Made by a program: the position numbers and the translations under genes
The notes under the pieces: model-generated
Told to the model about the DNA's origin: nothing
Databases searched by the model: none
Seen by the model: the letters and a program-made list of their open reading frames with translations, nothing else
Shown here: positions 7,516 through 52,085 of the stretch, one piece after another
Numbering within the stretch: the first letter of the stretch is position 1
How the letters are laid out: every line of letters starts with the position of its first letter
Assembly: GCA_021904315.1 (NCBI GenBank)
Contig: CM038923.1
Location: 372,001-436,000 of the forward strand
Length of the DNA: 64,000 nt
From: Sphagnum magellanicum
Lineage: Eukaryota > Streptophyta > Sphagnopsida > Sphagnales > Sphagnaceae
Reading direction: 5' to 3'

Positions 7516-8453
7516 TTAAAAAACATGTGATTATCTGATCTTGCAGACATATATCTACATAGTTTTATCCTTCTTGTCCTTGTTTCAGGAAATGTCTACG
7601 CCTCTCACATCGTGGAGACATTGAGACAGTAGACTTCAAAATACAAGAAAGCTTTTTGAGGAAGGTTGGTACAAGCCATTTGTGTACCTTTTGATTTCTG
7701 AAAGGACAGAAAATGTGCATTTCAAGTCATGGCTGTCAGTGAACATGTTCCAGTCAAGTTTGAAGGCAGACAATCCGATCAGGCCAAGAATGGAGTCTTT
7801 TTAAGGACTTGATTAAGGGTTGTACTACACATGTTGATTATGGGTCCTACTTCCCAGGTTCCAAGCTTTCCAGATTTCATTTACATTTAGACCTTTCAAC
7901 AGTCACTCTGTATCCAAGCAGATCCACACCAAATACTTGACTAACTCCAAATACATGGAGCAATTCACGACAAATTTCTGTGTCTCATCATTCCACTGCT
8001 GCTCCCCCCATCCCCGCTCCCCAAGGTCATCTGAAAGGACCGCCACACTCAGAAATTGACTCTGAGAAAAAAATGGCCAGCTGATCACCCCCAGAGCTCC
8101 AACTTAGTCATACAAAAGCATACGAAATGAGGAAACATATGAACTTATAAATTCCGGTTGCAATAGAAATTATGGAATGCAAATTTATGTTATATACTGC
8201 ACAGCTGGCTCTAATTTGTTCAGAAACAACGTTCCACAACAGCAATCTACAGCCGCTATGTACGAATGCGCAAGTATACTGATGCACGTTAATGACACAC
8301 CGGCACCCATGCCCGCATCATACTACTGGCTATATTATTTTCCTCCTCGAACTAGGGAACAAACAAGACTAGAAAAGTTCCCCTGATCAACGACTGACGA
8401 CCAACTTCCTGCTTGTCACCGACTGCAACATCTTCGTCGGGCAGCAAGCAATT

Positions 8454-9456
8454 TTAACAACTGTGCCACGCCAGAACCCCGTTGTCGTTGGAGACGTTAT
8501 TATTTATGTCGTAAGACGTGCGAACAACATTGCCGTCCTCCTGTGCGCAATTAGCATAAATGTAGAACGGCGATCCAAATAGGCCAAATCCTTCTGGCGT
8601 ACACGTCGCAATGTAGTCGCCTCCCTCCACCAAGTTCCCGTTGTCATTGCTTAGAAAGGGATTGAGATCTAAACTTGACTGGGCGAAAACTCCGGCGTCG
8701 TTTGCGCAGTTGGCGGATACGACGCTTCCCGTGACTGAGAATGGTTCTTGGCAAGATGCTGTGAAACCGCCACACTGGTGATGAATGCCACATCAACATA
8801 CCCATCCCACGAATTAGTAGTCATGATCTGTATCTTCGTCCGGCGGAAACTAATGGAGCTGTGTTACATGCATATTCAAGAAACAAACAATACGAAGACG
8901 ATGCACATTTCATGAGGCATGTTCATTCGGGCACCACATGCAGTCTATGGCTACGTACTGGGCCGGAACTAGCTCGTCCAAATAGATCGAGCTCGATGCA
9001 TTCAAGTGTCGAACAAGACGTCCCTAGTACAGCACTATGTTACACATGACACTTGTCAAATCCACCCGCAATTGGTATATATCCAGAATCCAGTGCACTC
9101 CAAGAGATGAAGAGAACTGGAGATCATGAACATGGCCGATGAAGAATCACATTTCTCAAGCATTAGGCCGCAACGGAAGGAACGGTTATAAGCAGGAGCT
9201 GTGCAACAGTGATAATCAAGAGCATTGGAGAATAACGACGTCATGGAACAAGCGCAAATCAGGCATCCAAAGCGTACCAAAAGGAATTATATTTAGATAT
9301 GGCCATCTAGCTAGCTCATTAACTATGAACACAGGTATCAATTTCCGACTGTTGTTGCTGGCTGGCACTCACCGATGCTTCAGCTCCGTTGAGTAATGCC
9401 GACATGCAGAGAAGCCCTGCAGCCACAGCTAGAAGCGCCATCTTCTGCGAAGCCAT
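8454..9456 (-). CDS. Secreted cyanovirin-N homology (CVNH) lectin, copy A, intact
   Basis: Two exons, 9456-9373 and 8774-8454 (TAA), with a 598-bp phase-0 intron (GTGAGT...CACCAG), encode 134 residues. Exon 1 (28 codons) is a signal peptide, MASQKMALLAVAAGLLCMSA and on to GAEAS. Exon 2 encodes the whole lectin domain as two internal repeats of about 50 residues. Each has the CVNH pattern: Cys..(14-17)..A-N-C, then S-x-D-[LI]-N and SNDNG-x-L, with residues such as SSLDLNPFLSNDNGNLVEG and TSYDINNNVSNDNGVLAWH. CVNH proteins bind high-mannose glycans; whether this one does is not known. Cys pairs match the two usual disulfides, and two more Cys sit at the domain's first and last residues. The start is fixed by identity with copies B and C and by the TATA box upstream. 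Confidence 0.9.
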
Positions 9457-9587
9457 GATGATCTTATGAACACTGAAATTGAGCGGCTGAGTATGGTGGG
9501 CTGCGGATGGTATTGAAAGAAAGCTGGAGGAGTAGATGAGTTGGGAATGCTTGAGATGAATGATACTCGCAGCTCGATCCCATCTGC

Positions 9588-9594
9588 TTATATA
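9588..9594 (-). promoter_or_regulatory. TATA box of CVNH copy A
   Basis: TATATAA on the minus strand, 132 bases before the ATG, inside the segment ggtacctatataagcagatg that is shared with copies B and C. Confidence 0.7.
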
Positions 9595-10224
9595 GGTACC
9601 AGAGCTCAATCCCCTCTTACCCCTGGACGACTAGCTGGCAGAGTGTGACGGCGGACTATACACGCGTGCAGGCGGACTTCGCGTCAACTCTACGAGGGTG
9701 TGTGGGTGGGGGAAAAAGTGGGTTACATTATTAACTTTGACAATACTATGCTGAGAAAATATAGGGTGCAAGACTACTATGGTCCCCCCCAATTTGCACG
9801 GAGTTGAAAAGAAGTTTAAAGATGATAAAGGCTTGAGAAACTGCATCTAGAGTTGAAAGCAACGCAATTAAATCACGATGTCATTAAAAATAAATTAAAG
9901 ATAGGAAAAGGCCCACAAGTTTACTTCTTTTTCCCACTTCAAAGTGCCGTTTGGGATGTCAAAATACTTTATTTTGCCTGACAGTTTCAAAAGGCTGCCA
10001 AGTTTGAGTTTTCGCCACAGTTTCACTAGTTCCAAAACTGTCAGAGTTTCAAAATGTATAGAAACCAAGAATAGGCAGTATGTCTTCATTGACTGGCAGT
10101 GATGTATTGGAAGAGCCGAATGGTCTTTATGTACTGCGGCTGTGTGTTGACATCATTTGCTGGTATTCCCAAAAGTTTGAAAACAATTTGTCCATACGCA
10201 TCATCACGATCGTCATTCTGTCCA

Positions 10225-10990
10225 GTCATAACGATGGGGCCTGTTCCAGAACGTAACTACTATTCCCCACTGTGGATCCATTCACCACACTACAATGTTT
10301 CCCACCGTTGTTTCACATTCCAAGTGGAACCGGCAGACGCACAACTGGAACCAGCAGATGACCACTGTGCAACTTAAGAAGAAACCAAAAATGGTACCTG
10401 ACTATAATAAATAGTTTTGGTGCCCGTTTCCGGCACTTTGTCAAGCTTTTTCACAGTGGGACAGGTGGCCATCTGCTGGTTCCAATTTTGGTCTGGTTGA
10501 ATTCACTTGTAATCTGTGAATGCAAGATGGAGAGCACACTCGACCTGTGAGTCAAAGCTGAGGGAAACCGGTTTGGAACCGGCGCTGGTAGAACCTGTTA
10601 CCACCTAATTGAAGGCAGCCCGCCCTATGGGGTCCACCATGGTTGTGTAGGCAGTGGAAGGGACATGTTCCATAATACATTGAGCGTAGCTGGGCCTCAT
10701 TTAACAATTTTTTTGCAAGAGGAGGCTCCTTCACCTCACGCCTAAAACTACAATCTTTAATTGGCTTGTTCGACACCAAGAGGGTAAATAGCAGGGCCCT
10801 TTGCGTAGGGTAAGTATTGAAAATGGGGCAATTTGGAGCATGACCATGAGGGTACAAGGGGAAGCCGAGCAGGGGACTCAAATTCCAAATTCCTATAACC
10901 GCCTCCTCTGAGATCCTTACAAAGTTTAAAGATCTGCTAGAGTTATAAATGTCTGTGATTTTGTTTGAGAACGAGAGGACCTTATTTTGG
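10225..10990 (-). repeat. Dispersed repeat R1, copy A (uninterrupted)
   Basis: Read on the minus strand this matches 60.64-61.75 kb and the two halves 36.94-37.05 plus 44.05-44.40 kb. Shared words include 'cttcaattaggtggtaacag', 'ccagcagatggccacctgtc' and 'acattgtagtgtggtgaat'. The site 'gacaaagtgccggaaac' (about 10430-10446) is the empty target site of the 7-kb transposon found in the third copy. A peptide shared with the 61-kb copy (NEAQL.SMYYGT) is readable, but I cannot assign it to a family. Confidence 0.75.
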
Positions 10991-11746
10991 GAATGCCCTC
11001 ACTTTGTGACCAAGTATCTTCCGCAAAATAAGGAAGGCCTTTTAACCATTTAGATACAACCAAGGAACTTTATTACTTAATGCAAGTTCAACCAGTTTGC
11101 TGGTCTCCAACTGCTGCTTAGGGCTATGCGTATAATATTGCACACAGATGTGAATGTAAGGGACCTTTCAATCTTGTTCACCAAGCTCAAGGAACTTAGG
11201 GTTTAGAGAGCTCAAGATTAGTGCAGTGTGCCATTCAATGCGCACCACTGAGAAAGGTGTGTGTTTGTTTACGAGAGGCACTGTGGTGACTTTAGGTTTA
11301 GCATCATGAAAGATTGTCACACCATTTGCTCCAAACAAATTAGTTTGTTGGCACTCCAACAAAAACATGTCCATTTCACTGTACTTGAATTTGGTTAATG
11401 TGATTGTACAGGTCAGCGTGGCAACTCATATAGCATGAACAAGCCTTTTATTATGATTTGTAATGCTTATTACATCTTTAAAGCTTTTTATAATGTAATT
11501 TTTGTAACACCTTCGGAAAGAAGCAAATGAGAAGAATTAAATGACATATTTAGAAGTGATTTTGAGATCTCATTATTTATTTATTCTTAAACAAGAGTCT
11601 ACATCCAGAGGCCCAACTTTTTTTTGCAATTCTTAAATTTTAAATTATATATTGAGGTTTCTAAAATATTTTTTATAATAAACACATTGAGCAGAAAGTA
11701 CATAACACTAACACATTTGATTTGCATGCCCTACTAAGAAGGGAAC
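10991..11746. other. Intergenic stretch, nothing recognised
   Basis: Mostly AT-rich single-copy-like sequence with short ORFs only. No domain, repeat or RNA gene could be supported. It ends at a transposon terminus at 11747. Confidence 0.4.
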
Positions 11747-11782
11747 GGCTTGAGTCAGCCAGCACCCACCAGTGCACCATCC
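11747..11782 (+). mobile_element. Left terminal inverted repeat of an older relative of the 37-kb transposon
   Basis: Begins GGCTTGAGTCAGCCAGCACC and continues CACCAGTGCACC, lining up without gaps with the left end of the complete element at 37044 (GGCTGGAGTGAATTAGCACC, CACCAATGCACC). Downstream order is also the same: pyrimidine-rich stretch, short tandem repeats, acidic low-complexity region and C2H2-type ORF. No right end with a matching target duplication was found. Confidence 0.6.
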
Positions 11783-12059
11783 AAAAAATCCCATTCTGAG
11801 ATTTCATGGATGGGATTAAACTGTCCCAAAGGGGTCAGTTTACTTGGTCAACAGATTTATTTTCTTTTCCTCCTTTTTTTCCTAGCTAGATATTTTTCCC
11901 TAGCTCAGTTTTTTTTTTCCTGGCAACAGTTTTATTATCATTTTTATTTTTGGCCCACCCCTGACCCCAAGTTTTTTGTGGGAAGCTCCTACCTACCCTC
12001 CAAACCTAAACCCACCTTCCTCCCTCATCCTGCTGGCCCCCTCCCCACCCATCTCCTTT

Positions 12060-13110
12060 TGCACTCACTTCCGTTGCTAGACCTTTAGGAGTGCTACTTG
12101 TTGTCAAGAGCTTCAACATGGTGGCAGCTGGAGCGCGAAAGCAAGAGGAGCTAGGTATTTTAGGAGTGCTGCTCGTCATTAGGAGCTTCAACATGGTGGC
12201 AACAAGAACACAAAAGCAATAGGAGCTAAAGTGGGAGCTTGAAGGTAAGCTCCCTTCTCCTCCTCCTCTCTTTTTCTTTTTTTGTCTTTGTTGCAAAGAA
12301 GATGACAATGGCATCATCATCCTTCTCTTTTCTTGCATTGCAGGTGCAAAAAATGATGACGAACAGCTATCATTTTTTTGTGGTCTTACTGTGCACATCA
12401 CAACAACTTTGGGTTGTAGGCGAGAAAAAATGACAACAAGCAACATAGTTGTTTGTCGTCGTTCTGCTATGGGTTGCAGGTATTTTTGCAAGTGTGAGAG
12501 AATGACAACGAGCAACTGCACTACTTGTCGTCATCCAATTTTTTAAATTTTTTTATAGTTGTGAATGAAAATGATGAGCACAGCCTCATCATCCTTTCCA
12601 AGCTCTGAGGCAAGCATAATTAACAACGATGAACAACAATGCTATTCATCGTTGATCTAATTCTTTTCCAAAAGAAAGAACAATAATGAACAATCGCATT
12701 GTTCATATTCATCCTTTTTTTTTGTTTTTTTTGTAGCTATGAAGGATGATGGCACTCGTCATCCTCTTGAAACTCTAAGGCAAATACAAGTAATGATGAC
12801 AAGTAGCACTGTTGTTCGTTGTTGTAGTTCTTTTGAAGAGAAAAAACAACGACGAGTAGGTGCACTGCTCGTCATCATTTTTTATTTTTATTTTTGCAGC
12901 TATGAAGGAGGACAACAAGCTATGCTCGTCATCCTTTTCAAGTTCAAAAACTTACATAGGTAATAATGACGAGCAACGCACCTGCTCATCGTCATTTTAA
13001 TTTTTTTCCAAAAGAAAGAATGATGAAGAGCAACCATGCTGCTCATCATCATCTTTTTTTTTTTTTTTTCTTGCAATTGTGGAGCAAGACGACAAGTGCA
13101 ACTCGTTGTC
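12060..13110 (+). repeat. Degenerate tandem repeats in the 5' part of the older transposon
   Basis: At 12085-12230 a unit of about 75 bp with 'aggagcttcaacatggtgg' appears twice or more. From 12270 to 13110 units of about 90-110 bp recur, each carrying a short inverted pair such as 'gacgagcaac' ... 'gctcatcgtcat' followed by a T-run and 'tgcagctatgaagga'. The long ORFs here (for example 12006-12521 on the minus strand) are by-products of repetition. The equivalent position in the 37-kb element carries an unrelated minisatellite (37434-37870). Confidence 0.6.
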
Positions 13111-13346
13111 TTTTTCAAGTTCTAGGGCAGGGCGCCCAATAACAATGATGAGCAATGTTGCTATTCAATATTGTTCTAGTTGTTTCCAAGGTAAGAAACA
13201 TGGGCACTCATCTCATGTTGAACAACAAGCGTTTATTGTTATCAATTTTTTTTCACTTGCTTCCTACAAGCTCCTAATGGTCCTTTGCTTTGCATCTGCA
13301 CAATTGGTGAAAGAGTGGAAGATGAACTAGGAATTAAAATAATGTT

Positions 13347-15112
13347 ATGTTGTTTGTGTTTTTGTTAAATGCAAACTTGGAGGAAAGCAATGAATGTTGG
13401 AATAATCAACAAGTTTTAGCAGATGTTGTAGATGGCATGGGAAATGTCATGAATGACAAACATTTAGAGGCTACGGTGATGAGACAACAAATGAGTGTTG
13501 AGAATGTGGTTCCATTGGTTGCAAGTGAGATTGTTGAAGAGGAAGAAGTGTAAGTGAGTGAAGATGTTGGGGAAACATCTAAAGGAAATGTTGATCAAGT
13601 TGAGATGGATTTGGAAAGAACTATCTTAATGATAGAGGACTAAGAAAATGTAGTTCTTGCTGTTCCATTTTTGGAGCAAGAAAATGCAAATGAAGATGTT
13701 GAACCCCATGCACATATTGATGGAGGTGACATAGCCATTGAACTTCACTTATTATAATTATTACCCCACCCATCGTCTCAAGTGGAAAGGATGGATGGGG
13801 TTTTTTTTGTCAAATTTGTGATTACAATACTTTTTTCAATTATGGTCCTTAAACCTTTACATGCCCCACCTTCCTTCTCCATGTGAGGTGGGTGGGGCAT
13901 TTTTTTTGGTTTAAGTTTATAGGAAATACCTTTAGGTTTTGTAGGTGATATTTTTATTTTTAGGGTTTTTTTTCATTTTATGCAAATTTCAATACTAAAG
14001 TTTAACAATACCCTCATCTTGTGTTTTTGTTCTTTTATCTCTTTGTGTAATACCCTCATCTAGTGTTTTACTTTTTCTTTTTTTGTGCCATACCCTAATC
14101 TTGTGTTATAATATTTTCTCTATATATGCAATACTTTCATTGTTTTGAGGATAATCTTCATGCAGAATATTAAATTTCACATTAGGTTTTTTGTTTTTTG
14201 TTTTTTTTAAATTTTGGATGTGGTTGCGCCCCCCCGCCCCCCTTCGATTGCCATAGAAAGTGTCCATTGGGCAAAGGATGGGCCCAAATTTTCTTATAGG
14301 GTTGATGGGTGTGATGCATCCTATATGGCCAAATATAATTTGGTGCAACATTTGTGGGTGCATCACAATGTTACCATGGATTTGGGCAAGCCCAAACACC
14401 CATTTATTTTGGAGCAAGGCCCAAGGGTTCAAGATCATGCGGCAATGAATGCATTGGTCTTGATCAACCTTTTGGCCCGGTTTTGTCACAATGAGCAAAA
14501 GGCTATTGCTAGGGCCAAGAGGCATGCATTCCTGAAATGGGATAAGCTCTAAGTTGATTTGCAATACACACTTGAATTGCCTAAGCCTGCACTTGTGATG
14601 CTAACTTCTAGCCACATTCTTTAACCTTTTGGCATGACTACATGGGGTGTGGGGGCCATGCCTTTCAATGTGCAGGCTAAGCTAGAGTGCGATGAGGACC
14701 TTGCACTTGTGATTTGAATGACTCAAGCCGGGTTTGCAAAGGCATTCAAGGGCAGTTGGATGGAGCACGATTAGAAGTCTACATTAAATAAAATAGTGTA
14801 GCATAAAAAGATTAGCCTCCTTACACAATACCATGATTTAGAAATGATTCATGGTTAGTAAGTTTCCAACAATGCCATATTGAATTTTATTTGAATTCTA
14901 GGTTTTTGAATTCATATGCAATATTTATTGTATTGTGTTGTTTGTTTTAGGGTTCAAGGCACCACCAAGGAGGTGTTTGTGACTGATGTTATGGATGTAG
15001 CACTAGCCAATTGCGAGATTTTTACCCAATAACATGCCGATGATGCAGAGGTTTCATCAATGCAGTATAGGAGGGCCAATGGGATCCCATCCCCCTTCGG
15101 TAATGATACAAA
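13347..15112 (+). pseudogene. C2H2-type transposon ORF, older copy, broken
   Basis: The acidic N-terminal part (13347-13640, stops present) is followed by a zinc-finger exon from about 14214. That exon aligns with the ORF at 38518-39187 through HWAKDGPKFSYRVDGC, MAKYNLVQHLWVHH, DHAAMNALVL, ARAKRHAFLKWDKL, TTWGVGAMPFN and CDEDLALVI; the next exon (14951 on) begins VQGTTKEVFVTDV. Damage: the first zinc-ligand Cys has become Tyr, several in-frame stops follow 14551, and the donor after MIHG has lost its GT (tagtaag). Both copies share the downstream intron position, so this was a spliced gene in the ancestor. Function is unknown; the finger suggests DNA binding. Confidence 0.65.
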
Positions 15113-15249
15113 TAGCCCATAATTTATCCTAGTTTTGATTAGGGTGTTGTTTTGGTCTTTAGGATTTAGGGTAAAAATTTATCTTTGAAGCAACCACATA
15201 TTTATTGGTATGACATGTTCCCCATTTGTGGGATAGTTCTTGGTTTGCA

Positions 15250-16250
15250 TGCATTATACATCATGGTTCTATAATAGAAACTTCACTTGTTACATGATGG
15301 TATTAGCACTTTGTGTAACAATATGCATAGCTTAAGTTCTTCATTTGATTCACAAGTAGTGCATTTTTTTTTTTAGTCCAATAAAAGTTGCCAAATACTG
15401 TTGTTTCATAATTGCTAATCTAATCATGTGTAATTTTGGATTCCAGTAGTTTTTTTGAACACTTGGTTCACAAGTAGCATGATGGCAAAAACTAGTTGTA
15501 CTCTAGTAGTTGGAAGTATATTGCAGTGATCAAGCCTACTGTGAGAGAGGTTATAACAATGTCTTACAAGTAGGTCAAGTCCCTTAGAGTCTCACAATTG
15601 CTATTTTAATATCTACATTAGGATTCAAATAGTTCAACACTTGTTTGGGGGTCTTTGTACTTGATGGTATGACATTACTTGTGCACTTGTAATTATAGTA
15701 GATGATTCTATAATGAAGTAGGTAATTAGACCCTCTCCTTGTTTGTTACTTGCCACTTGCACTACATATACATGTTCAAGTGGTCCAAGTGGCCAACCAC
15801 ATTGTAGGACATTGAATTGCATTTCTAGTTGTGAATCAAGTATTGCACTAGTTCAAGTAGATCAAATTACTTGAATCTACTTCTTTTTACTTGTAAACCC
15901 TTGAAATCCTTATTTTTTGCTGTTACTTGTGCATACTTGTTAAATTGTTCAAATACTTGTTTACTTGAACTTGTACTTTGCAAGTACTTATCTAATATGT
16001 CCAAGTGTCTAACCACATTACAAGATATTTTTTCTACATACTTTGAACTACAAGTAGCAAGGTAATTCAAAGTAACAAGTAGCAGTACTTTAATGTACAA
16101 TGAATATGCAATAGATTAAAATGGCAAGTGATGACTTGAACATACTTGTTAACTTGTAGGTCATAGAATTTTTTACTTGTGGTTTTACTTTATACTTGTG
16201 CACATGTACTTGTTAAATATTTTTTAAATTAACACTTGTTTGAAGAAGTA
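15250..16250 (+). repeat. Block densely strewn with the word ACTTGT
   Basis: The hexamer ACTTGT and near forms (TACTTGTT, CAAGTAG) occur dozens of times at irregular spacing, sometimes back to back as inverted pairs (cttgaacttgtactttgcaagtac near 15965). There is no fixed period, so this is not an ordinary satellite. The same word occurs in the opposite orientation at 19.5-20.1 kb. Confidence 0.5.
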
Positions 16251-17580
16251 AAATTTAATAAAGTTTCCTTAGACATGTACAATTAGATCAAATAACAACT
16301 TTGAAGGATAACTATATGAATTGTACAAAATTGGTATGAGATCATTAGTTCAACCAAAGTTTAATGTTCATTTATTATTTTATTTTTTTATAGTAGGGCC
16401 CATTGATGGTGTCAAATAGGACGACATTGTGACTGAAGTCCCAAACATTTTGGTTGAGGTGGGTTGCAAGGAGCAAGCACAAATTAAATGCCAATTGCAT
16501 TACAAAGGAACCATAACCTACAATTGAAGTTTCTGCAACTAATTTTATCAAGATAGTTAAGTTGTTGACAAGAATGAGCCCAACACACTCAACATGGTGC
16601 CTCCTATCCTAGAAAGTGGACTACAAGAGTGTTAGGCCTTGAAAGGAACAATAGAGCATGACTCATTCCATAACTTCAAACTTGAATTAAAAATTTGGAA
16701 AAATATATAGTGTAATTAAAATAATTATTTTACTGATTTTAATTTCATGAATTGTTGTATAATAATATTATCTTAAATTTTTTTGTGATTAATCAAATAT
16801 TTTATAGTAATTTTATAGTAATTATGAAAATTAATGTTATGTTTAACAAATTATTGTATTTATAATTAATAATTACCAAGAGAAAAAAATTGCTTGACCT
16901 ATAATAATTTTTACAACAATAAATGTTATTATACATTAAGTAATGTAATTAATTGAATAATAATTTTTAAAAAATTCATGTAAGAATTTACTTTCTAATA
17001 ACAATTGTTAATTCATTATTTATAATTCTAAAATAAATATTTAAAATATTTAATTTCAAATTATAGTCATTAAATTAGTTTCAGATTAATTATATTATAT
17101 ATAATTCGATCAGATTTTTTAAAATAATAAAATATTTTTTTAAAAATTATTATTTATGAGTTATGTATTAATAACTTATGAATAACTAGATAGCTAATTT
17201 GTTAAATATTAAGAAGGTACTACTTATTTAAGTAATTAATAATGAATACTAAATATTTATAGCGTATAGTTTATAATTTAAATATATGTAAATTTCATCA
17301 TTATTAAGTAAATGATTATCTAATTATCTAGTACTTGAATTATTTTAAAATCTAAAAACTAAGAAAGTAAGGCATGAAGAAAGTTTTGGAATTACAACTT
17401 AGTTTGTAAGGAAGTTGTAACTTCAAAACTTACCCCATATTGTTTGTTCTTCATTCCTATTTTGAACATTATATAAACAAAGGGGGTGTGCATATCCAAT
17501 TTCACACTAAAAAATTTGTGCACATGGGATGAACTAATCAAAGGGTTTAACGCAAAACAAAAAAACAAATAATGCATAAT
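16251..17580. other. Very AT-rich stretch without recognisable genes
   Basis: From about 16690 to 17350 the sequence is almost only A and T, with no coding potential. 16380-16660 resembles spent coding sequence on the plus strand but has many stops and no recognisable motif. Confidence 0.5.
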
Positions 17581-17586
17581 TCTAAA

Positions 17587-17815
17587 GTACTTACTTCCCC
17601 AACCTACTTATCTATCTAGCTAAGTAGGTACCTAGTTTGACCTACCCATCTAGGTCGACCTATGTACCTACCTACCTACCTACCTAAGTACCTACCTATA
17701 TGAGTAGGTATTTAACTTAGGAAAGTAGAACTTACCTACTTACTTTTTTTCCTAAGTAGGTAGGTACGTAAGGATTGTAAGCACCTATTTATGTACCTAT
17801 CGAGGTACCTACTAA
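17587..17815. repeat. CTAC/GTAG tetranucleotide repeat arranged as an inverted pair
   Basis: The left part is (CTAC)n-like (tacctacctacctacctaag) and the right part carries the complementary form (cctaagtaggtaggtacgta). The DNA could fold into a hairpin of imperfect CTAC/GTAG arms. A related GTAG-rich array lies at 43.47-43.86 kb inside the complete transposon. Confidence 0.7.
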
Positions 17816-17829
17816 CCTTTTTTTTTTAA

Positions 17830-18215
17830 ATGCCACATGGCATATTTACATTGGGCCACATGTCATAATATAATATCATCCAAGTATTTGAATTGAATGT
17901 CTTAGATTATTTCAAAATAATAATAATAATATTTTAAATAATCATATATTAAAACATGTGGCAGCACATGATTTGCCTTCAATTGTGACCAAAATAGTTT
18001 CATCTTAGTCGCATGTGACAATAGTATACAATGGAGTCAAAGGATGAAATGTATTTGTTGACTTTTTATTTCATACAATACCTTTTGTCATTTGCAACTA
18101 ATTTATCACATGCGACTTATTTTAGGCAACTAAAAGGATTTTAGTTACAAAATGTTTATTGTGACTAAAATTTAGTCGCAAAAAGTAGTTGAAAATACAT
18201 GTTTTTCTTTTAGTG
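17830..18215. mobile_element. Right end of a CACTA-like element inserted in a transposase pseudogene
   Basis: The sequence ends ...TTTTTCTTTTAGTG at 18215, the mirror of the CACTAAAAGAAAAA terminus typical of CACTA/EnSpm elements. It is preceded by subterminal inverted words (gactaaaatttagtcgc at 18162-18178; agtcgcatgtgac near 18008). It interrupts the transposase reading frame exactly after GARAI. I could not find a left end with the matching 3-bp duplication; the CACTA at 17505 has a different flank. Confidence 0.4.
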
Positions 18216-18455
18216 AATAGCTCTAGCTCCTTCATGAACACCCTTCCCACAGCTTGACCCAAAGTAGAACCACACCATGTGACATCCATGGGGTAAAACA
18301 TCACTCCACGTTTTTGCTTGGTACCTAAACATACCAAAAACTAAGAATTAGGGTTTAGAAAATGTTACAAAATAAAACCATGATATTTGATAACCCATAA
18401 AGAAAGTAGAGTACCTAGAAACATGATAACACTTTACATGATTTGAATTGGGTTA

Positions 18456-18625
18456 CGCACCCATCAAACCAAACAAGGTGTCCATTTGGGCAAATATCTC
18501 TAGAAGTCAATTGTGCCCAATGTAATTCAAAACAATGTTGCACACCCATTATACCAAACAAGATGTTCATTTGGGCAAATACCTCTAGAGGTCAATTGTG
18601 CCCAATGTAATTCAAAATAGTGTTG
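18456..18625 (-). repeat. 85-bp tandem duplication inside the transposase pseudogene
   Basis: Two units share 'catttgggcaaat', 'gtcaattgtgcccaatgtaa' and 'accaaacaag'; corresponding bases lie at 18481 and 18566, so the period is 85. Because 85 is not a multiple of three, the duplication breaks the frame and yields the block ELHWAQLTSR...CPN twice. Confidence 0.85.
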
Positions 18626-22881: not shown

Positions 22882-22886
22882 CAACA

Positions 22887-23707: not shown

Positions 23708-23712
23708 CAACA

Positions 23713-39772: not shown

Positions 39773-40190
39773 GCAATACCCACATATACGTCCTAAAATA
39801 GTCATAGGCATATTACATTCAGTGCAATACCCGCATCTAAGTCCCATAATAGTCGTTGTAATTTTTGGCATCCCTTGCAATACCCGCATCCAAGTCCCAT
39901 AATAGCTGCTGGTATTTTTGGCATCTCTTGCAATACCCGCATATGGGCCACCCATAGTTGTTGACATTCGTCATTCGTTGCAATACCCGCATATGGGTCC
40001 ATGGTTTTCGTTGGGTTTTATAACATTTCTTGCAATACCCGCATATAGTTTCCATAATATCCACTAGTTTTTTTTGTGTCTCTTGCAATACCCGCATATA
40101 GTTTCCATAATAGTCACTGGTTTTTTTTGTGTCTCTTGCAATACCCGCATATAGGTCCCATAATAGTTGCTGGTTTTTTTCATTCTTTGC
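39773..40190. repeat. 53-bp tandem array, about eight units
   Basis: 'gcaatacccgcat' starts at 39824, 39877, 39930, 39980, 40032, 40085 and 40138, with a worn copy at 39773. Each is followed by 'gtcccataatagt.g.tg' or a close form. Minus-strand ORFs here repeat the same peptide and are not genes. Confidence 0.9.
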
Positions 40191-40320
40191 AAAACTTACA
40201 TTTTGTCATAAAATTAATTTAGAATAATAATTAATTTAGGTATATAAAAAGACATATTTTGGGTATCCATAGCACTTATTTGTTATTTTGAAATGACATT
40301 ACATGTGAGTTTTGCATTCA

Positions 40321-41081
40321 GGGTTTAGGGTTTAGGGTTTAGGGTTACGTTTTCACATAAGGTTTGCTTCTTACCTTTGTGTGATAACTCCAACCTAATT
40401 TTCCTAATCTCTTTGAAGAAAATATATAATAAGATTGTATTAGATCCCATATGTTTAAACCCAAAAAATTTCCCCCTAATTGAATATAAAATATTTTTGA
40501 TAGTACATGAATTATCAACAAATTTTGACATATAATTAAATAATTAATAGACCATTATTTCAGATAATTTAAATGATTAATTATCAAGAATTACATAATC
40601 ATTTATTTATTTGGAATAATTAACTATTCAGTTGGCTTAACTTCATTTATTTGGATAATAAAAAGTTGGATCTAAAAATTAGATTAACATTATTTGATTG
40701 ATTAACTTTAATATATTTTTATTTTAATAAGTGATTAAAATCACTATTTAAGATAACTATTCCATGTTATAGATTGCATGTTCAGCTTTTTCATGAAAAA
40801 TTCATACACCAAAATAAGTTTGATCACAATTGCCATTATACTATTTGTTCCACAAACAATACAATTTTTTTTCAAATTTATGAAACAAAATAAGAATCAT
40901 GGGTTTAGGGTTTAGGGTTTTAGGGTTTTTTAGGTTTAGGGTTTAGGGTTTAGGGTTTAAGGTTTTAGGGTTTTTTAGGTTTAGGGTTTAGGGTTTAGGG
41001 TTTTAGGGTTTTTTAGGTTTAGGGTTTAGGGTTTAGGGTTTTTTAGGTTTAGGGTTTAGGGTAAACCCTAAACCCTAAACT
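40321..41081. repeat. Interstitial TTTAGGG telomere-like repeats inside the transposon
   Basis: Perfect TTTAGGG runs lie at 40321-40346 and 40901-41081. The second is interspersed with TTTTAGGG and TTTTTTAGG variants in a repeating pattern. It ends at 41060 with a switch of strand, AGGGTAAACCCTAAACCCTA, a head-to-head junction. Between the two runs is AT-rich sequence that recurs 1.4 kb further on. Confidence 0.9.
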
Positions 41082-41149
41082 CCTAATCAACAACCCCAGC
41101 CTCACACCTTTGTTAACATATTATTTTGAAATTAATTAATTATTTTAGA

Positions 41150-43685
41150 ATGACCCAAAATGTAGATATCACATTTAGGGTAGGATCTTCATTTAAAGAA
41201 GTTTAAACCCCACAACCGTATTTTTATAGTGGCCCAAAATGCAGGTATTGCATGTAGGGTAGGATCTTCACTTAAAGAGGGCTTAAACCCCCCATGCGTA
41301 CTTTCGAGGTGACCCAAAATGCAGGTATTGCATTTAGGGTTCAGTTTATATCATTATTTATATATTAAGTGTTATGAATAACAATATATTTGGACCAATA
41401 TTTAAACCAATATTATACATCATGAAAAATAAAGTTTACATAAGGACTTTTGTTATATATGTATAAAATATAAAATATTTTTGACCCACTATATGAATAT
41501 ATTAACCAAGAAAGTTTTTACTATATATCAAAGAAATAAAAATAAAAATTTTAATTAAACATAGGATTAATATATGAGAGAGATCATTTTTATTATTATG
41601 TGAAATAGAAAAGAAGAAAGTAAATAATTACTTGCTTTGAATTTTTTTAAAACATAATTTAAAATCTTGTTAAATTAAAGACTTTATAGTTATGTTTTTA
41701 GTATGAATATACAACTTTAAAAGGGGAAAAAAAATATGAACATCTTTGAAAAATATTTAAGCTTGAACTTTTTATTTTTTGATCTTGACAAACTCCGTGT
41801 TACATTTAGGGTTGGGTTTTCATATAAGGTTTGTTTTTTACCTTTGTGCGATAAATATTTATGATAATTAATGAATTATCACAAAATTTGTCATATAATT
41901 AAATAATTAATAGACCATTATTTCAGATAATTTAGATGATTAATTATCAAGAATCATATAATCATTTATTTATTTAAAATAATTAACTAATCATTTGGCT
42001 TAAATTTATTTACTTGAAAATAAAAAGTTGGATTTAATCAGATTAATTAATTTGATATTTGATTGATTAACTTTAGTATATTTTTGTTTTAATAAGTTAT
42101 TAAAATCACTATTTAAGATAATTATTCCATGTTATAGATTGCAAGTTCAACTTTTTCATGAAAAATTTTTACACCAAAATAAGCTTGATCACAATTGTCA
42201 TTGTATTATTTGTTCCACAAACAATAGAACCTATTTTTAAATTCATGAAAAAAAATAAGAATCATGGATTCCTAATCAACAACCCCAACCTCCATACACA
42301 CTTTTGTTAACATATGATTTTGAAATTAACTAATTATTTTAGAGTGACCCAAAATGCAGGTATTGCATTTAGGGTAGGATCTTCATATAAAAAACCCTAA
42401 ACCCACATGCATACTTTCAGAGTGACCCTAAATGCAGGTATTGCATTTAGGGTGGGATCTTCATATAAAGAACCCTAAACCCCACATGCGTACTTTTGAA
42501 GTGACCCTAAATGCAGGTATTGCATTTAGGGTGGGATCTTCATATAAAGAAACCCTAAACCCCACATGCGTACTTTCGGAGTGACCCTAAATGCAGGTAT
42601 TGCATTTAGGGTAAGATCTTCGTATAAAGAAAGCTTAAACCCTACATGCGTCCTTTCGGAGTGACCCAAAGTGCAGGTATTGCATTTAGGGTTGGGTTAT
42701 TTCAAAGTGACTTTGCATATGCATATTGTGTTTAGGGCTAGGTCTTCACTTAAAGGTATCCAAACCATTTAGATGGGTTTTTTTGAAACGTGGGTATTAC
42801 ATTTAGGTTTGTTTTTTCATTTCAACTTGAAATACCCAAACTTATACTTACCTTTACCAACTAGAATTTTGGGGTTTCGATGCAATACTTACATCCGTAC
42901 TTACTTTTACCAACTGGAATTTTGGGGCATAATTTCAATACTTGCACTTGTACTTACTTTTACCAAACCCTAACAAAAAAAAATCTTAGTGATATATGCC
43001 CTAAACCTAAAAAATTATACAAGCTATACAAATCATATAATGCAAAATAAACTAATTTAAAAGAACATAGGAAAAAATTTAAAAACCAAAATTCAAAGGT
43101 TTTAAACTATAAATATTTATTAAGTGAAAGAAAATACGTTAATTTTTAAAAATAATCAAATAAATTTCATATAAAACCAAAAGAAAAGATATGTGTTTTA
43201 TCTTTGTGTGATCCTTCCAACCTAATTTTTCCACTCTTTTTGAAGAAGATATAAAATGCAATTGTATTACTTCACATATGTGTAAACCCTAAAATTTTCC
43301 CCCCAAATTTAACCTACTCTAGATTAATTACTATACATTTGTGAAAAACTTATTAATTAATTTGTGTCTCAACCCTAAACCTAAAAATTTCCCCCCAAAT
43401 TTAGCTTACTTTAAATTAATTACTATACATTTATGAAAAACTTATCAATTAATTTATGTGTCTCAACCCTAAACCTAATGGTTAAGTTAGTAGGGTATGT
43501 AATTAATAGAGTAGCTAGGTAAGTAGGGTAGGTGGTTAGTACAATAGCTTGGTTAGCGGTGTGACCCAAAATGCAAGTATTGCATTTAGGGTATGATCTT
43601 CGTATAAAGATGTTTAAACCTCACATGCGTATTTTCGAAATGGCCCAAAATGCAGGTATTGCATTTAGAGTAAGGTTTTTAGGGT
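41150..43685. repeat. 80-bp telomere-word satellite in three blocks within a ~1.4-kb higher-order repeat
   Basis: Units start 'gtgaccc.aaatgcaggtat' and continue tgcatttagggt, gatcttc, aaccctaaaccccacatgcg; block 2 has starts at about 42343, 42422, 42501, 42581 and 42661. Blocks are at 41150-41345, 42342-42705 and 43560-43685. The sequence before each block also repeats: 'acctttgtgtgata' at about 40373, 41840 and 43200, and 'taattaaataattaatagac' at 40533 and 41896, giving a large period of about 1.4 kb. Confidence 0.8.
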
Positions 43686-43860
43686 AAGGTATGTAATTAA
43701 TAGGGTAGCTAGGTTAGTAGGGTAGGTGGTGAGTACAGTAGCTAGGTTAGTAGGGTAGGTGATGAGTACAGTAGCTAGGTTAATAGGGTAGGTGGTAAGT
43801 ATAGTAGCTAGGTTAGTAGGGTAGGTGGTGAGTGCAGTAGCTAGGTAGAAAAGTGAACAG
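43470..43860. repeat. GTAGG-rich minisatellite near the right end of the transposon
   Basis: A unit of about 35-45 bp, 'gtagctaggttagtagggta' plus ggtgg(t/a)gagta, appears about seven times, split by one 80-bp-satellite block. The older, related terminus at 36.42-36.66 kb has similar GTAGG-rich sequence at the same place. Confidence 0.75.
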
Positions 43861-44054
43861 GGTAGCTATGTGTGAGGTCAGGTCCAGGGAAAAACGAGCA
43901 GAACCAAAAAAAAAAAGTACAATGGTCAACAGCAAAAAGAAATGGACTGTCATGAACCCCATCCGGCGCCAAATGAAAAAACGCAACCCATCCAGTGGAC
44001 AGAACGGCCAACTGGTGCATTGGTGGCTGTTAATTCACTCTGGCCCAAAGTGCC

Positions 44055-44412
44055 GGAACTGTGACAGGAAAGCTGTTTACTTTTTAGTCAGGGACTATTT
44101 TTGGTTTCTTCTTGAGTGTGGCAGTGGTCATCAACTGCTGGTTCCAATCGTGACAGGAAAGCTGTTTACTTTTTAGTCAGGGACTATTTTTGGTTTCTTC
44201 TTGAGTGTGGCAGTGGTCATCAACTGGTTGCAGTTGTGTAAGCGTTAGGTCCACTTGGGATGTGAACCACAGTGGGCTACATTGTACTGTGGTGAATCAC
44301 AGTGGGGAACATCGGTTATCACATCACGCGGCAGAATGGCATTTAAGGCACATTGTGAGAATTGTACGTTTTGCAAGTTCTATTGCAGAAGTTGACACAT
44401 GATCCCACCGTA
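44055..44412 (+). repeat. Dispersed repeat R1, copy B, right part, with an 89-bp tandem duplication
   Basis: Continues R1 after the insertion ('ccacagtgggctacattgta', 'cattgtgagaattgtacgtt', 'agttgacacatgatcccacc'). The segment starting gtgacaggaaagctg is present twice, at 44061 and 44150, a period of 89 that the other R1 copies lack. Confidence 0.8.
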
Positions 44413-44414
44413 AA

Positions 44415-44611
44415 CTTTGATATTTAGACAATAGGTCTTTGTTTAAGTAAACTGTGGCCACAGGCTTACCGCTAACTACAAGGGTAGTTCACCGTCCTCA
44501 CAGAGCACATCCATGGAGGAGACGTGGTCCAGTTAGGATTTGAACTCCCAAACGCTAGCTTCGCAGCCAAAGCCTCAGCCACCAGGGTACGTAGCTGCCG
44601 CACTGCTCCAA
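44415..44611 (-). mobile_element. tRNA-derived SINE-like element, copy 1
   Basis: Read on the minus strand it starts near gcggcagctacgtaccctgg, has an A-box-like TGGCTGAGG and a B-box GTTCAAATC, then a non-tRNA tail ending cctattgtctaaatatca. Block A has no counterpart at this place, so it inserted after the duplication. Copies 2 and 3 lie near CVNH copy C. Not a functional tRNA: no cloverleaf with paired acceptor arms is visible. Confidence 0.6.
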
Positions 44612-45279
44612 TGTCCGTGCTGAATTTTCACATTTGTATATTTCACAAATGACGACAATGATGATAAGTCTGGACAAACTGTTTTCAAACTTCTGAGAAC
44701 TCCACCAAATGATGTCAACAACCAGACGCAGTAGATAAAACACCATTCGGCTCATCCAATACATCACTGCCAGTCAATGAGTCTGAACATGCCTATTCTT
44801 GGTTTCTATCCATTTTGAGTCTCTGGAAGTTTTGGAACTAGTGAAATTGTGGCAAACAAATAAAAACTGAGATCCTCGGGTATGATTCAACTGAAAATTC
44901 ACAGCCTTTTGAAACTGTCAGGCAAAATAAAGTATTCTCAGGTGGCAAGCTGCAATTTGGAGTGGGCAACAGAAGTAAAATCGTGGGCCTCTTCCTATCT
45001 TTTAGTGATATCATAATTTAATTGCGTTCCTTTCAACTCTCAATGCAGTTTCGCAAGCCTTATTCATTTAAAAAGTTCTTTTCAACTCCGTGCAAATTGG
45101 GGGGACCACAGTAGTCTTGCGCCCTTGATTTTCTCAGCATAGTATTGTCAAAGTTAATAATGTAACCCACTTTTTCCCCACGCACACACCTTCGTGGAGT
45201 TGACGCGAAGTCCGCCTGCACTCCGTCACACTCTACCAGCTAGTCGTCCAGGGGTAAGAGGCGATTGAGCTCTGGTACC

Positions 45280-45286
45280 TATATAA
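45280..45286 (+). promoter_or_regulatory. TATA box of CVNH copy B
   Basis: TATATAA, 133 bases upstream of the ATG, in a segment conserved in all three copies (ggtacctatataagcagatg). Confidence 0.7.
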
Positions 45287-45418
45287 GCAGATGGGATCGA
45301 GCTGGGAGTACCATTCATCCCAAGCATTCCCAACTCATCTACTCCTCCAGCTTTCTTTCAATACCATCAGCAGCCGACCATACTCAGCCGATCAAATTTC
45401 AGTCTTGATCAAATCATC

Positions 45419-46402
45419 ATGGTTTCGCAGAAGACGGCGCTTCTAGCTGTGGCTTCAGGGCTTCTCTGCATGTCGGCATTACTCAACGGAGCTGAAGCAT
45501 CGGTGAGTGCCGGCCACCAACAACAGTTGGAAATTTATACCAGTTTTCATAGTTAATGAGCTAGCTAGATGACCGTATCTAAATGTAATTCCTTCTGGTA
45601 CGCTTTGGATGCCTGATTTGCGCTTGTTCCATGATGTCGTGATTCTCCAATGCTCTTGATTATCACTGTTCCACAGCTCCTGCTTATAACCGCTCCTTCC
45701 ATTACGGCCTAATGCTTGAGAAATGTGATTCCTCATCGGCCATGTTCATGATCTCCAGTTCTCTTCATCTCTTGGAGTGCACTGGATTCTGGACATATAC
45801 CAATTGCGGGTGGATTTGATAAGTGTCAAGTGTAATATAGTGCTGTACAGGGGACGCCTTGTTGGACGCTTGAATGCATCCAGCTCGATCTATGTGGACG
45901 AGCTGGTTCCCGCCCAGTACGTAGCCATAGACTGCATGTGGTGCCCGAATGAGCATGCCTCATGAAATATCCATCGTCTTCGTATTGTTTGTTTCTTGAA
46001 TATAACGCAGCTCCACTAGTTTCCGCCGGACGAAGATACTAATTCGTGGGATGGGTATGTTGATGTGGCATTCATCACCAGTGTGGCGGTTTCACAGCAT
46101 CTTGCCAAGAACCATTCTCAGTCACGGGAAGCGTCGTGTCCGCCAACTGCGCAAACGACGCCGGAGATTTCGCCTCCTCAAGTTTAGATCTTAATCCCTT
46201 TCTAAGCAACGACAACGGGAACTTGGTGGAGGGAAGCGACTACATTGCGACGTGTACGCCAGAAGGATTTGGCCTATTTGGATCGCCGTTCTACATTTAT
46301 GCTAATTGCGCACAGGAGGACGGCAATGTTGTAAGCGCGTCTTACGACATAAATAACAATGTCTCCAACGACAACGGGGTTCTGGCCTGGCACAGTTGTT
46401 AA
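45419..46402 (+). CDS. Secreted cyanovirin-N homology (CVNH) lectin, copy B, intact
   Basis: Exons 45419-45502 and 46082-46402 (TAA) with a 579-bp phase-0 intron (GTGAGT...CACCAG) encode 134 residues. The signal peptide MVSQKTALLAVASGLLCMSA plus LLNGAEAS is exactly exon 1. The mature domain is exon 2 and starts CGGFTASCQEP. It has two CVNH repeats: ASC...SANC...SSLDLNPFLSNDNG and ATC...YANC...ASYDINNNVSNDNG, ending LAWHSC. It is predicted to be exported; the fold is a glycan-binding one in characterised members, but the sugar here is unknown. It differs from copy A at only a few positions (for example GDFASS against GVFAQS, VVSAS against VVRTS), all compatible with the fold. The upstream promoter is nearly the same as in A, but a SINE and a 7-kb transposon now lie above it. 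Confidence 0.9.
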
Positions 46403-47579
46403 AATTGCTTGCTGCCCGACGAAGAGATTGCAGTCCGTGGCAAGTAGGAAGCTGCTCGTGCATCGTTGATCACGGGACCTTTTCTAGTCTTGTTTGTTCC
46501 CCAGTTCGAGGAGGAAAATAATATAGCCAGTAGTATGATGCGGGCATGCATGCCGGTGTGTCATTAACTTGCATTAGTATACTTGCGCATTCGTACATAG
46601 CGGCTGTAGATTGCTGTTCTAGAACGTTCTTTCTGAACAAATTAGAGCCAGCTGTGCAGTATATAATATAAATTTGCTTTTCATAATTTCTATTGCAACC
46701 GGAATTTATAAATGCATATGTTTCTCATTTCGTATGCCTTTATATGACTAAGTAGTGATCAGCTCGCCATTTTTTTCTCAGAGTCGATTCATGAGTGTGG
46801 CGGTCCTTTCAGATGACCTTGGGGGCCGGGGATTGGGCGAGCAGCAGTAGAAGGGTACCAGACAGAGAAATTTGTTCTGGCCTGCTACATGCATTTGGAG
46901 TTAGTCAAGTATTTGGTGTGGATCTGCTTCGATAGAGTGACTGTTGGATGCTCTAAATGTAAATGAAATCTGGAAAGCTTGGAACCTGGGAAGTACGGCG
47001 CTTAATTAACATGTGTAGTACAACCCTTAATCAACTCCTTTAAAATACTTCATTGTTGGCCAGGTGGGATTGTCTCCCGTCAAACTTGACTGGAACATGT
47101 ACACTGACAGCCATGACTTCAAATGCACATTTTCTCTCCTTTCATTCCGACAACTAGGAGGACAATTTTCTGCAATATGCAGTGGGACAAATAAAAGCTT
47201 CAATATTGCTTTGGCCCACTAGACCTACAATATGCTTTCAGCTTTAGCTTCGGGTTCAGAAGAATCTGCTAGTGTACGAAATACACGCAAGGGGTAGGCA
47301 GAGACAAAATCTAGTGAATGATGAACCAATATCTGCTGAGAGTTGCAGGAACCCATGATCCAGGACCTCAGAAATCAAAAGGTACACAAACGGCTTGTAC
47401 GAACCTTCCTCAAAAAGCTTTGTTCTATTTTGAAGTTTCGTTTCTCAATGTCTCCATGATGTAAGAAGCATAGAAATTCCTGAAACAAGGACAAGAAGGA
47501 TAGAACTACGTAGATATATGTTCACAAGATCAGATATTTATGTGTTTAAAAAGAAAAAGATACTTCCAAGGACCAAAGG

Positions 47580-49541: not shown

Positions 49542-51437
49542 CTAACAACTGTGCCAGGCCAGAACCCCGTTGTCGTTGGAAACGTTGTTATTTATGTCGT
49601 AAGACGTGCGAACAACATTGCCATTCTCCTGTGCGCAATTAGCGTAAATGTAGAACGGCGATCCAAATAGGCCAAATCCTTCTGGCGTACACTTCGCAAT
49701 GTAGTCGCTTCCGTCCACCAAGTTTCCGTTATCGTTGCTTAGAAAGGGATTGAGATCTAAACTTGAGGAGGCGAAATCTCCGTTGTCGTTTGCAGTTGGC
49801 GGATAGGACGCTTCCCGTGACTAAGAATGGTGCTTGGCAAGATGCTGTGAAACTGCCACACTGGTAATGAATGCCACATCAACAGACACATCCCACGAAT
49901 TAGTAGTCATAATCTTTATATTCGTCCGGCGGAAACTAGTGGAAATGTGGTACATGCATCAAAGAATCAAGCGATACGCAGACGATGCATATTTTGGAGC
50001 ATATTCATTTCATGTTTCCAACAACACATACAGTGTAGCTATCGCTACGTATTAGGCGGGAACTAGCTCGTCCAAATAGATCGAGCTGGATACATTCGAT
50101 TGTGTGCAAAAGGAGAACTGGAGATCATACAAAGACGATACGTATTTCATGAGGGATGTTCATGAGGGCACCATATGCAGTCTATGGCTACGTACTGGGT
50201 GGAAAGTCCATAGTTCCATGGACAGGTTTAAATCGAAGGTTTAAAAACGGTTTAAAACGGTCTAAATCGGTTTTTAAAAAGTTAAAAAATCGAAAGTTAA
50301 AAAAGCCTGCAAGTATAACGATGTTTTTATTCATTTAGGTCAAAGTACACATAAGTTCGAATTTTTCACGTACTTGAATTTCTCCAGACCTAGGGGCTTG
50401 TTGTGACAACGATCCAACATCACCAAATCGTGGTCGAACGCGTCGTAGGTTGTCTTTGAGATTCTGAAGTACTGATAAATATTTTGCGCTTTGGAATCAA
50501 TTGGAGATTAATTAAATTTTGAAAAAAATAAAAATACTTTACCAAGATGTAAACTACCATCGACGTTGCTGCCAGGTTGCAGCAGAGCCAAACGGAACTT
50601 TTTGCTAGATTTTTTTTCGCTTCAACTCCAGTTCGATGAGTTGTCAGTGAAGTGGGGATCACTGCTTAGATTTCCCCTGCCCCCCTTCATCAACGTTTCT
50701 GTCGGATCCCACCCAACAGCTTCTTCTTGCCGTCACGTTTTTTCACGGTACAACATTCTCTCCAAGTTCCGAGCAACTGTCGCCGACAGATCACTAGACG
50801 ATGATGGAAGGCTGAAGCGATTCGGTGGTCCTAAACGAAACCGGGATTTTCAGAACTTATCCAATTTTTTCCGTAAATAAATCGGAAAGAACCGATTCGG
50901 CCGATTTTCGGTTTTTTGTTTTTAAAACCGCGGTTTATTGGAACTGGAAACTGGCGCGTCCAAATCGAGTTGGATGCATTCAAGTGTCCAACAAGACGCC
51001 CCCAGTACAGCACGTACTACACATGACACTTGTCGAATCCACCCGCAATTGATATATATATCAAGAATCCAGTGCACTACAAGAGATGAAGAGAACTGGA
51101 GATCATGAACATGGCCGATGAAGAATCACGTTTCTCAAGGTTTAGGCGGTAACGGAAGGAACCGTTATAAGCAGGAGCTGCGGAACAGTGATAGAATCAA
51201 GAGCATTGGACAATCACGACTTCGTGGAACGAGCGCAAATCAGACATCCAAGGCGTACTAGAAGGAATTATATTTAGACATGGCCATCTAGCTAGCTCAT
51301 TAACTATGAACACTGGTATCAATTTCCAACTGTTGTTGCTGGCTGGCACCCACCGATGTTTCAGCTCCGTTGAGTAATGCCGACATGCAGAGAAGCCCTG
51401 CAGCCACAGCTAGAAGCGGCATCTTCTGCGAAGCCAT
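49542..51437 (-). pseudogene. CVNH lectin copy C, frameshifted pseudogene
   Basis: Exon 1 (51437-51354) encodes an intact signal peptide, MASQKMPLLAVAAGLLCMSA plus LLNGAETS. Exon 2 (49860-49542) is 319 nt instead of 321: two bases are missing where A and B read AACTGCGCAAACGAC and C reads AACTGCAAACGAC (near 49795). The frame then shifts and reaches a TAA about 20 codons on, removing the second CVNH repeat. The original stop codon is TAG here, not TAA. The intron is 1493 bp, against about 590 in A and B, because of a large insertion. The TATA box region is retained (ctgcttatataggtacc, 51565-51581), so transcription is possible. A base-calling error could fake a 2-bp loss, but the other substitutions suggest real decay. 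Confidence 0.85.
50205..50945. mobile_element. Insertion of about 740 bp in the intron of CVNH copy C
   Basis: Copies A and B read continuously 'tacgtactgggc.ggaactagctcgtcc' here; C is interrupted between 'tacgtactggg' and 'ggcgcgtcc'. The insert starts with aggtttaaatcgaaggttta and ends cggttttttgtttttaaaac. Both ends are rich in AAACCG/CGGTTT words and begin with AGTTCCA when read inward, which suggests a short non-autonomous DNA element. 'TGGAAA' on both sides may be a worn target duplication. Confidence 0.5.
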
Positions 51438-51764
51438 GATGATTTGATCAAGACTGAAATTGATCGGCTGAGTATGGTGGGCTGCTGATGGTATTGAAAG
51501 AAAGCTGGAGGAGTAGATGAGTTGGGAATGCTTGAGATGAATGGTACTGCTAGCTCTATCCCATCTGCTTATATAGGTACCAGAGCTAGATCGCCTCTTA
51601 CCCCTGGACTTGGAGCCGTGTGACGGAAGACGGTACATGCATACTGCATACCTTCCGCGGAATTTGCATGGAGTCCCCTAAGTTAGGCTCTGTGTGTGGA
51701 GAAAGTAGGCTACTTTATTAACGTTAACAATACTATGCCAAGAAAACTACTGTGGTCCCCCCAA

Positions 51765-52085
51765 TTCGCAAGAAGTTGAAAGGAACCCAAAATCACGATG
51801 TCCAGTGGGGCCGTGTGTAGACTGCTGACATCATGTGGTGGAATTCTCCAAAGTTTGAAAAACATTTGTCTATACTAGTTATCATCAGTCAATACTACTA
51901 TCGCAATTCTGTACCTGCTACGGATCAGTGAGCTACACCTAGTGGCTGAGGGTTTGACTGCTAATCTGGCGGTTGGGAATTCAAATCCCTACTGGACCAC
52001 TTTTCCTCAATGTGCTCTGTGCGGACAGTGAACTACCCTGGTTGTTAGGGGTAAACATCTGGCCAGAGTTACCAGGTAGGTAGGT
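51765..52085 (+). repeat. Direct repeat flanking block C, right copy, with SINE-like copy 3
   Basis: Collinear with 48160-48490. The SINE-like part (about 51918-52075) keeps a recognisable A box (agtggctgaggg) and B box region (ggaattcaaatccc). Confidence 0.7.

Follow-up and report, generated by a model that had tools for sequence, protein, structure and literature searches.

How do the two members of an inverted gene pair remain alike while copies of the same pair elsewhere in the genome drift apart? The question is raised by a stretch of 64,000 nucleotides (nt) from the moss Sphagnum magellanicum (contig C17, positions 372001-436000, hereafter the window; the genome comprises 438,994,042 bases in 31 contigs), which carries three copies, A, B and C, of a gene for a lectin of the cyanovirin-N type (CVNH). 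We put at roughly three in four the probability that the CVNH genes of this moss have spread as inverted pairs whose members are kept alike by gene conversion from arm to arm.

A preliminary description of this DNA had placed three two-exon copies here in the orientations minus, plus and minus, and their positions, exon lengths and intron lengths (598 nt in A, 579 in B) all hold, the intron of C measuring 1493 nt:

9373..9456, minus strand: copy A, exon 1, 84 nt, signal-peptide-like
8454..8774, minus strand: copy A, exon 2, 321 nt including the stop, CVNH domain
45419..45502, plus strand: copy B, exon 1, 84 nt
46082..46402, plus strand: copy B, exon 2, 321 nt including the stop, CVNH domain
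51354..51437, minus strand: copy C, exon 1, 84 nt
49542..49860, minus strand: copy C, exon 2, 319 nt, reading frame disrupted by the loss of 2 nt
50208..50948: stretch of 741 nt in the intron of C, absent from the other 18 aligned copies
49981..50126: stretch of 146 nt in the intron of C, likewise absent from the other 18

A and B are open frames of 134 residues with GT...AG intron borders. The bases lost from exon 2 of C are adjacent, and C is an unpaired, decayed copy. A TATA box, CTATATAAG, starts 139 (A), 140 (B) and 139 (C) nt upstream of the ATG. Family membership is firm: the Pfam profile CVNH (PF08881) matches A with an E value of 1.8e-14 (54.7 bits), B with 5.6e-15 (56.4 bits) and part of C with 1.9e-10 (41.9 bits), all above the curated cut-off of 24.5 bits. 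The earlier picture, a plant with inverted CVNH genes of which A and B are intact and C is broken, is borne out.

The family is far larger than the local cluster first described. A profile search of the genome gave 23 CVNH matches, C not among them, and 19 copies of the A/B/C type could be aligned, namely 16 paired copies, C, and single copies at C9:14.33 Mb and C12:1.60 Mb; 18 of the 19 are intact with the same two-exon structure. Remoter CVNH genes lie at C1:0.10 Mb, C1:7.13 Mb (with a stop), C5:0.32 Mb and C7:19.68 Mb (with stops). The 16 paired copies form eight divergent inverted pairs on five contigs, in every case with the minus-strand gene on the left and the plus-strand gene on the right. 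The pairs are listed with the longest BLAST arm and, for P1-P7, the identity of the core arm within the pair:

P1, C7:4.50 Mb: longest arm 2.9 kb, 100%; core 100%
P2, C9:14.20 Mb: longest arm 5.5 kb, 99.7%; core 100%
P3, C9:14.00 Mb: longest arm 16.5 kb, 99.9%; core 100%
P4, C9:14.70 Mb: longest arm 3.1 kb, 99.5%; core 99.6%
P5, C12:12.21 Mb: longest arm 2.8 kb, 99.0%; core 99.5%
P6, C5:3.00 Mb: longest arm 6.1 kb, 97.3%; core 97.0%
P7, C17:0.45 Mb, about 30 kb past copy B of the window: longest arm 4.2 kb, 94.9%; core 97.2%
A/B, C17, in the window: longest arm 2.3 kb, 89.9%

In five of the eight pairs the core arms are thus at least 99.5% identical, with P6 and P7 at about 97% and A/B below; the figures for A are lowered by about 300 nonhomologous nt included in its row of the comparison. 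Between loci, P2-P7 differ by 2.7-6.3% (identity 93.7-97.3%), and P1 differs from P2-P7 by up to about 12%. The 405 coding positions do not differ at all within P1-P6, and differ at three sites in P7 and 17 in A/B. In a tree of the copies, each of P1-P6 has its two arms as sister branches, A groups with P7L (the left arm of P7) and B with P1.

The arms of A/B extend well beyond the genes and enclose a long spacer, parts of which are also found in the spacers of P1 and P2 (unstranded features):

7508..10221: left arm of A/B, by arm-to-arm homology
44645..47561: right arm of A/B, by arm-to-arm homology
10222..44644: spacer of A/B, about 34 kb
6476..7499: flank left of A, 84-87% identical to the left flank, X, of P5, P2 and P3

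The homology between the A and B arms consists of three pieces of 86.2, 89.9 and 84.7% identity, far above chance. The window's cluster had been called young; with arms 85-90% identical, A and B are more diverged than the P2-P7 loci are from one another, and for them that label is not supported.

Near-identical arms could simply be new. On this account each locus arose by its own recent inverted duplication, and its arms are alike as they have had no time to diverge; the arms of P1-P3, almost free of mismatches over 2.9-16.5 kb, would suit it, and P1R resembles P1L in gene type and shares part of its spacer side, so P1 may be such a recent duplication. As a general explanation it is improbable, on two grounds. 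First, P2, P4, P5 and P6 have the order of flank, arm, spacer, arm and flank in common, with the same left flank X, the same spacer and the same right flank Y (of which P4 has just some 340 nt); the inverted pair therefore predates the duplication of these loci, a result that covers these four and not, in the same form, P1, P3, P7 and A/B. Second, the arms of P5-P7 are mosaic, with a divergence of about 4-6% outside identical runs.

The mosaic structure is sharply drawn. Of 193 mismatches over 4216 aligned positions in P7, just one falls in the 1.5 kb that span the lectin exon. P6, with 133 mismatches over 6036 positions, has identical runs of 566, 537 and 456 nt amid windows at about 4-5%; P5 has 2396 identical nt with both ends at about 4%, and P4 has 1753 identical nt adjoining an end at about 1%. 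Compared with random placement of the mismatches, the longest identical run is exceptional in P7 and P5 (p <= 1e-4), P6 (p <= 5e-4) and P4 (p <= 3e-4). A long identical run spans the lectin exon in all four pairs (in P6, the second longest run), from which we do not claim selection. Inverted arms, alike within a locus and diverged between loci, with sharp-bordered tracts in P4-P7, make up the pattern by which gene-converting palindromes are recognised.

P7 also preserves a switch point. Judged by the sites that distinguish A from B, P7L is A-like both upstream (53/58) and from 66 nt before the lectin exon onward (102/112), and P7R is B-like upstream (45/58) and A-like from the same point onward (102/112); P7R is thus a B-type gene with the lectin exon of A. 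At P4, the spacer is inverted relative to P5 and P2 and the order of the flanks is unchanged, which is what crossing over between inverted arms should yield.

Such structure also bears on whether the arms are real. PacBio continuous long reads (CLR) can contain fold-back chimeras, and arms could in principle be made or homogenised by fold-back reads or by polishing. The S. divinum assembly was built from CLR reads according to the part of its description cited here (PMC9946827), which bears on the matter only if it is the same genome. An assembly artefact is nevertheless very improbable: spacers of about 2.5-34 kb part the arms and recur at other loci, the mismatches are structured, and neighbours with equal scores in the dirigent and LHC families stand in direct rather than inverted order.

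The history that we favour, arm-to-arm conversion within inverted pairs that have spread, would run as follows. An ancestral inverted pair was duplicated to several places together with its spacer and both flanks. The two arms of a locus may then recombine with each other, non-reciprocal copying (gene conversion) removing differences between the pair's lectin genes and reciprocal exchange at times flipping the spacer, so that pair members would tend to stay identical and separate loci drift apart. The A/B pair of the window would have escaped homogenisation and retained two older types, 85-90% alike, and P7 would be partly homogenised, its right gene combining a B-like promoter, exon 1 and intron with A's lectin exon. 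Birth and death, proposed earlier for this cluster, suits the decayed copy C; the dominant process in the family would instead be concerted evolution within inverted pairs.

Several observations weigh against this history. P1, P2 and P3, with 1, 2 and 11 mismatches, are uninformative on tracts (p 0.66, 0.04 and 0.09), and their near-identity could equally mean recent inverted duplication. P4 is just about 1% diverged outside its identical run, and the sister support for P6 (91/98) is under the starred level. A/B itself is without a conversion signal; its identical runs do not exceed 121 nt (p 0.009). P3 and P7 have flank X on both sides, and therefore a more complex history. Finally, pooled over nine representatives, the ratio of nonsynonymous to synonymous differences per site (pN/pS) in the lectin exon is 1.01, giving no sign that purifying selection on the protein maintains the identity.

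That ratio does not demonstrate purifying selection across the family, nor does it support strong purifying selection; relaxed or diversifying change in the family is possible. Neutral decay of A and B, which had been named as a reason to doubt these genes, meets a divided answer: the corresponding rate ratio (dN/dS) between A and B is 0.24 in the lectin exon, but the pooled pN/pS over nine loci is the 1.01 just given. Comparisons with P1 reach a pN/pS of up to 3.5 on few synonymous changes, and these comparisons alone hint at positive selection, which we do not claim. The intact frames of 18 of the 19 copies suggest that the proteins are in use.

A different origin for the pairs would be a mobile element, a large transposon of low copy number whose long terminal inverted repeats contain the lectin gene, with the pairs as the element's ends and transposition as the means of dispersal. 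Pairs scattered on five contigs in a single fixed divergent order would agree with this, as would spacer and proximal flanks that occur chiefly at CVNH loci, like a low-copy unit. We consider it unlikely: homology between loci continues beyond both arms as far as the stretches compared extend, without any common outer end being found, arm lengths vary from 2.3 to 16.5 kb, and no transposase was found in 20 open frames scanned (ten in the window and ten at pair loci). The scanned frames include a reverse-transcriptase remnant in flank X. A piece of DUF659 (PF04937, E 2.1e-22), which we take to be typical of hAT-type transposases, lies at 63511-63894, near the right end of the window and outside the pair. 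A high-copy mobile element was rejected, as spacer and proximal flanks match mainly CVNH loci, besides short nested repeats and a few other pieces; among the matches listed, those at C9:2.615 Mb and C11:4.847 Mb are without a CVNH match. These lists hold 40 scored candidates each of 441, 1389 and 2655, and their counts are lower bounds.

The A/B spacer has features of its own. A second inverted repeat of about 0.8 kb and 90% identity lies within it (22887-23707 and 30865-31683). At 40901-41079, a degenerate repeat of telomere type (TTTAGGG, about 160 nt) runs directly into about 2.5 reverse-complement copies, head to head, and a second short run of telomere type lies at 40320-40346. Two frames in the window, 38469-39191 (240 amino acids) and 14211-14552 (113 amino acids), are similar by eye and have a possible zinc-finger motif, with no Pfam match at E 0.1. 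To the left of A, 1430-1957 holds an exon of a gene for the 116-kDa subunit of a V-type ATPase (PF01496, E 1.4e-24). No tRNAs or Rfam families were found in the window at the thresholds used.

What the genes encode can be approached through a structural model. The lectin exon of A, modelled from 12 sequences, is predicted with a mean local confidence (pLDDT) of 94.1 and a predicted template modelling score (pTM) of 0.83, and all 25 matches to the model in the PDB with E <= 0.001 are cyanovirins or their homologs. By sequence, too, the solved relatives are cyanovirin-N, a fern homolog (2jzj) and fungal homologs. The two-repeat architecture of cyanovirins is present, with two Pfam-matched stretches and a strand pattern that is repeated in the model, and the four core cysteines, presumably the defining disulphides of CVNH, are unchanged in every one of 12 aligned rows. 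Most probably the protein is exported and acts in the apoplast or cell wall as a binder of mannose-type glycans, in a role that is probably defensive; export is suggested by the first exon, hydrophobic as judged by eye, and the defence-lectin role by the CVNH family.

Is pairing peculiar to the lectins? Adjacent profile matches at most 50 kb apart on one contig were counted by orientation in six families, 'equal' neighbours being those whose profile scores agree, a proxy for identity:

CVNH (23 matches): equal 7 inverted, 0 direct; unequal 2 inverted, 1 direct
Germin/cupin (117 of 137 matches, above 90 bits): equal 31 inverted, 2 direct; unequal 16 inverted, 14 direct
Dirigent (17 matches): equal 0 inverted, 1 direct; unequal 1 inverted, 4 direct
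LHC (23 of 48 matches, above 100 bits): equal 0 inverted, 1 direct; unequal 0 inverted, 2 direct
B-lectin (10 matches): equal none; unequal 2 inverted, 1 direct
CAP (5 matches): equal none; unequal 0 inverted, 1 direct

Pooled, equal neighbours are 38 inverted to 4 direct and unequal ones 21 to 23 (Fisher p 1.9e-5, or 1.0e-4 without CVNH; since adjacent pairs lack independence, both p-values are underestimates). Germins and CVNH supply the whole signal, the other four families together giving 0 inverted and 2 direct equal neighbours (dirigent C4:24162061/24189008; LHC C1:21946499/21956708). Palindromy of every family was accordingly rejected, dirigent, LHC, B-lectin and CAP being without equal-scoring inverted neighbours.

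Equal-scoring inverted germin/cupin pairs lie on C12, C5, C15, C19, C17, C6, C11, C25 and others. One germin pair compared by sequence is inverted over 1469 nt at 99.93% identity; its arm has at least 40 matches in the genome (40 scored of 57 candidates), of which 38 are 89-100% identical; among the matches listed, 37 of the 38 have an opposite-strand match at most 20 kb away. Both convergent pairs (frames of 261 residues) and divergent pairs (frames of 152) occur, which looks like a separate spread of each type from its own palindrome. Members of some germin pairs differ in identity to the query (for example C6:1.65 Mb, 99 versus 95%, with unequal lengths), which tells against full homogenisation.

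Tentatively, and with rather less than even confidence, palindromic pairs may be a general device by which this haploid-dominant moss holds, repairs and spreads secreted wall and defence genes (CVNH lectins and germins) on ordinary chromosomes, each haploid nucleus gaining a second template for conversion, as in Y-chromosome palindromes, and separate loci drifting into new lectin variants. Arm-to-arm conversion has been discussed as a remedy for partnerless chromosomes, and a mainly haploid plant has that problem genome-wide. If several moss gene families sit in palindromes, mosses would offer a natural experiment on whether genes lacking a second allele are protected or diversified by palindromes. 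Near-identical neighbouring moss genes, moreover, need not be recent duplicates, and lectin biology gains a bryophyte family with about 19 genes of the cyanovirin type. The main text of the Sphagnum genome paper (PMC9946827) contains no word beginning with 'palindrom', 'cyanovirin' or 'lectin', and no report of gene palindromes in Sphagnum was found in the literature searched, the scope of which excluded supplements and most subscription journals.

Among known CVNH proteins, including CrCVNH of a fern (PDB 2jzj), the domain, the fold and the four core cysteines are common ground with the moss proteins; the model has a TM-score of 0.84-0.85 to CrCVNH and cyanovirin-N (0.85 to cyanovirin-N), whereas the moss protein is only 24-28% identical to the best cyanovirin-N, cytovirin-type and fern structures. 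On the moss side, a separate 84-nt exon 1, two extra cysteines at the ends of the mature domain and genomic inverted pairs set the family apart. Plant CVNH genes had been described as chiefly those of ferns, which is too narrow, as the domain is recorded in bryophytes, lycophytes and ferns in the part of a survey cited here (PMC6362431).

Copying between palindrome arms is best known from sex chromosomes. Palindromes with arm-to-arm gene conversion are described, in the sections cited, from mammalian sex chromosomes (Y and X) and from the willow W (PMC7023750, PMC8981503), the latter being, according to its authors, the first in a plant sex chromosome (PMC7023750). The moss pairs resemble them in their gene-bearing inverted arms, in an identity that is higher within than between loci, and in their conversion tracts; they differ in having smaller arms (2.3-16.5 kb) and in the scatter of a single palindrome, in several copies, over five contigs, and the genome has at least a second gene family, the germins, in such pairs. 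Among tandemly arrayed genes of vertebrates, 72-94% run parallel to one another, as stated in the passage cited (PMC2547482), unlike the germin and CVNH neighbours of this moss. For another moss, Physcomitrella, concerted evolution of tandem genes is suggested in the portion of that work cited (PMC3045890), likewise with near-identical neighbours ascribed to gene conversion; the Sphagnum pairs differ from these in their inverted order, in tracts that have been mapped and in the flipped spacer of P4, and for Sphagnum inverted neighbours have also been compared with direct ones.

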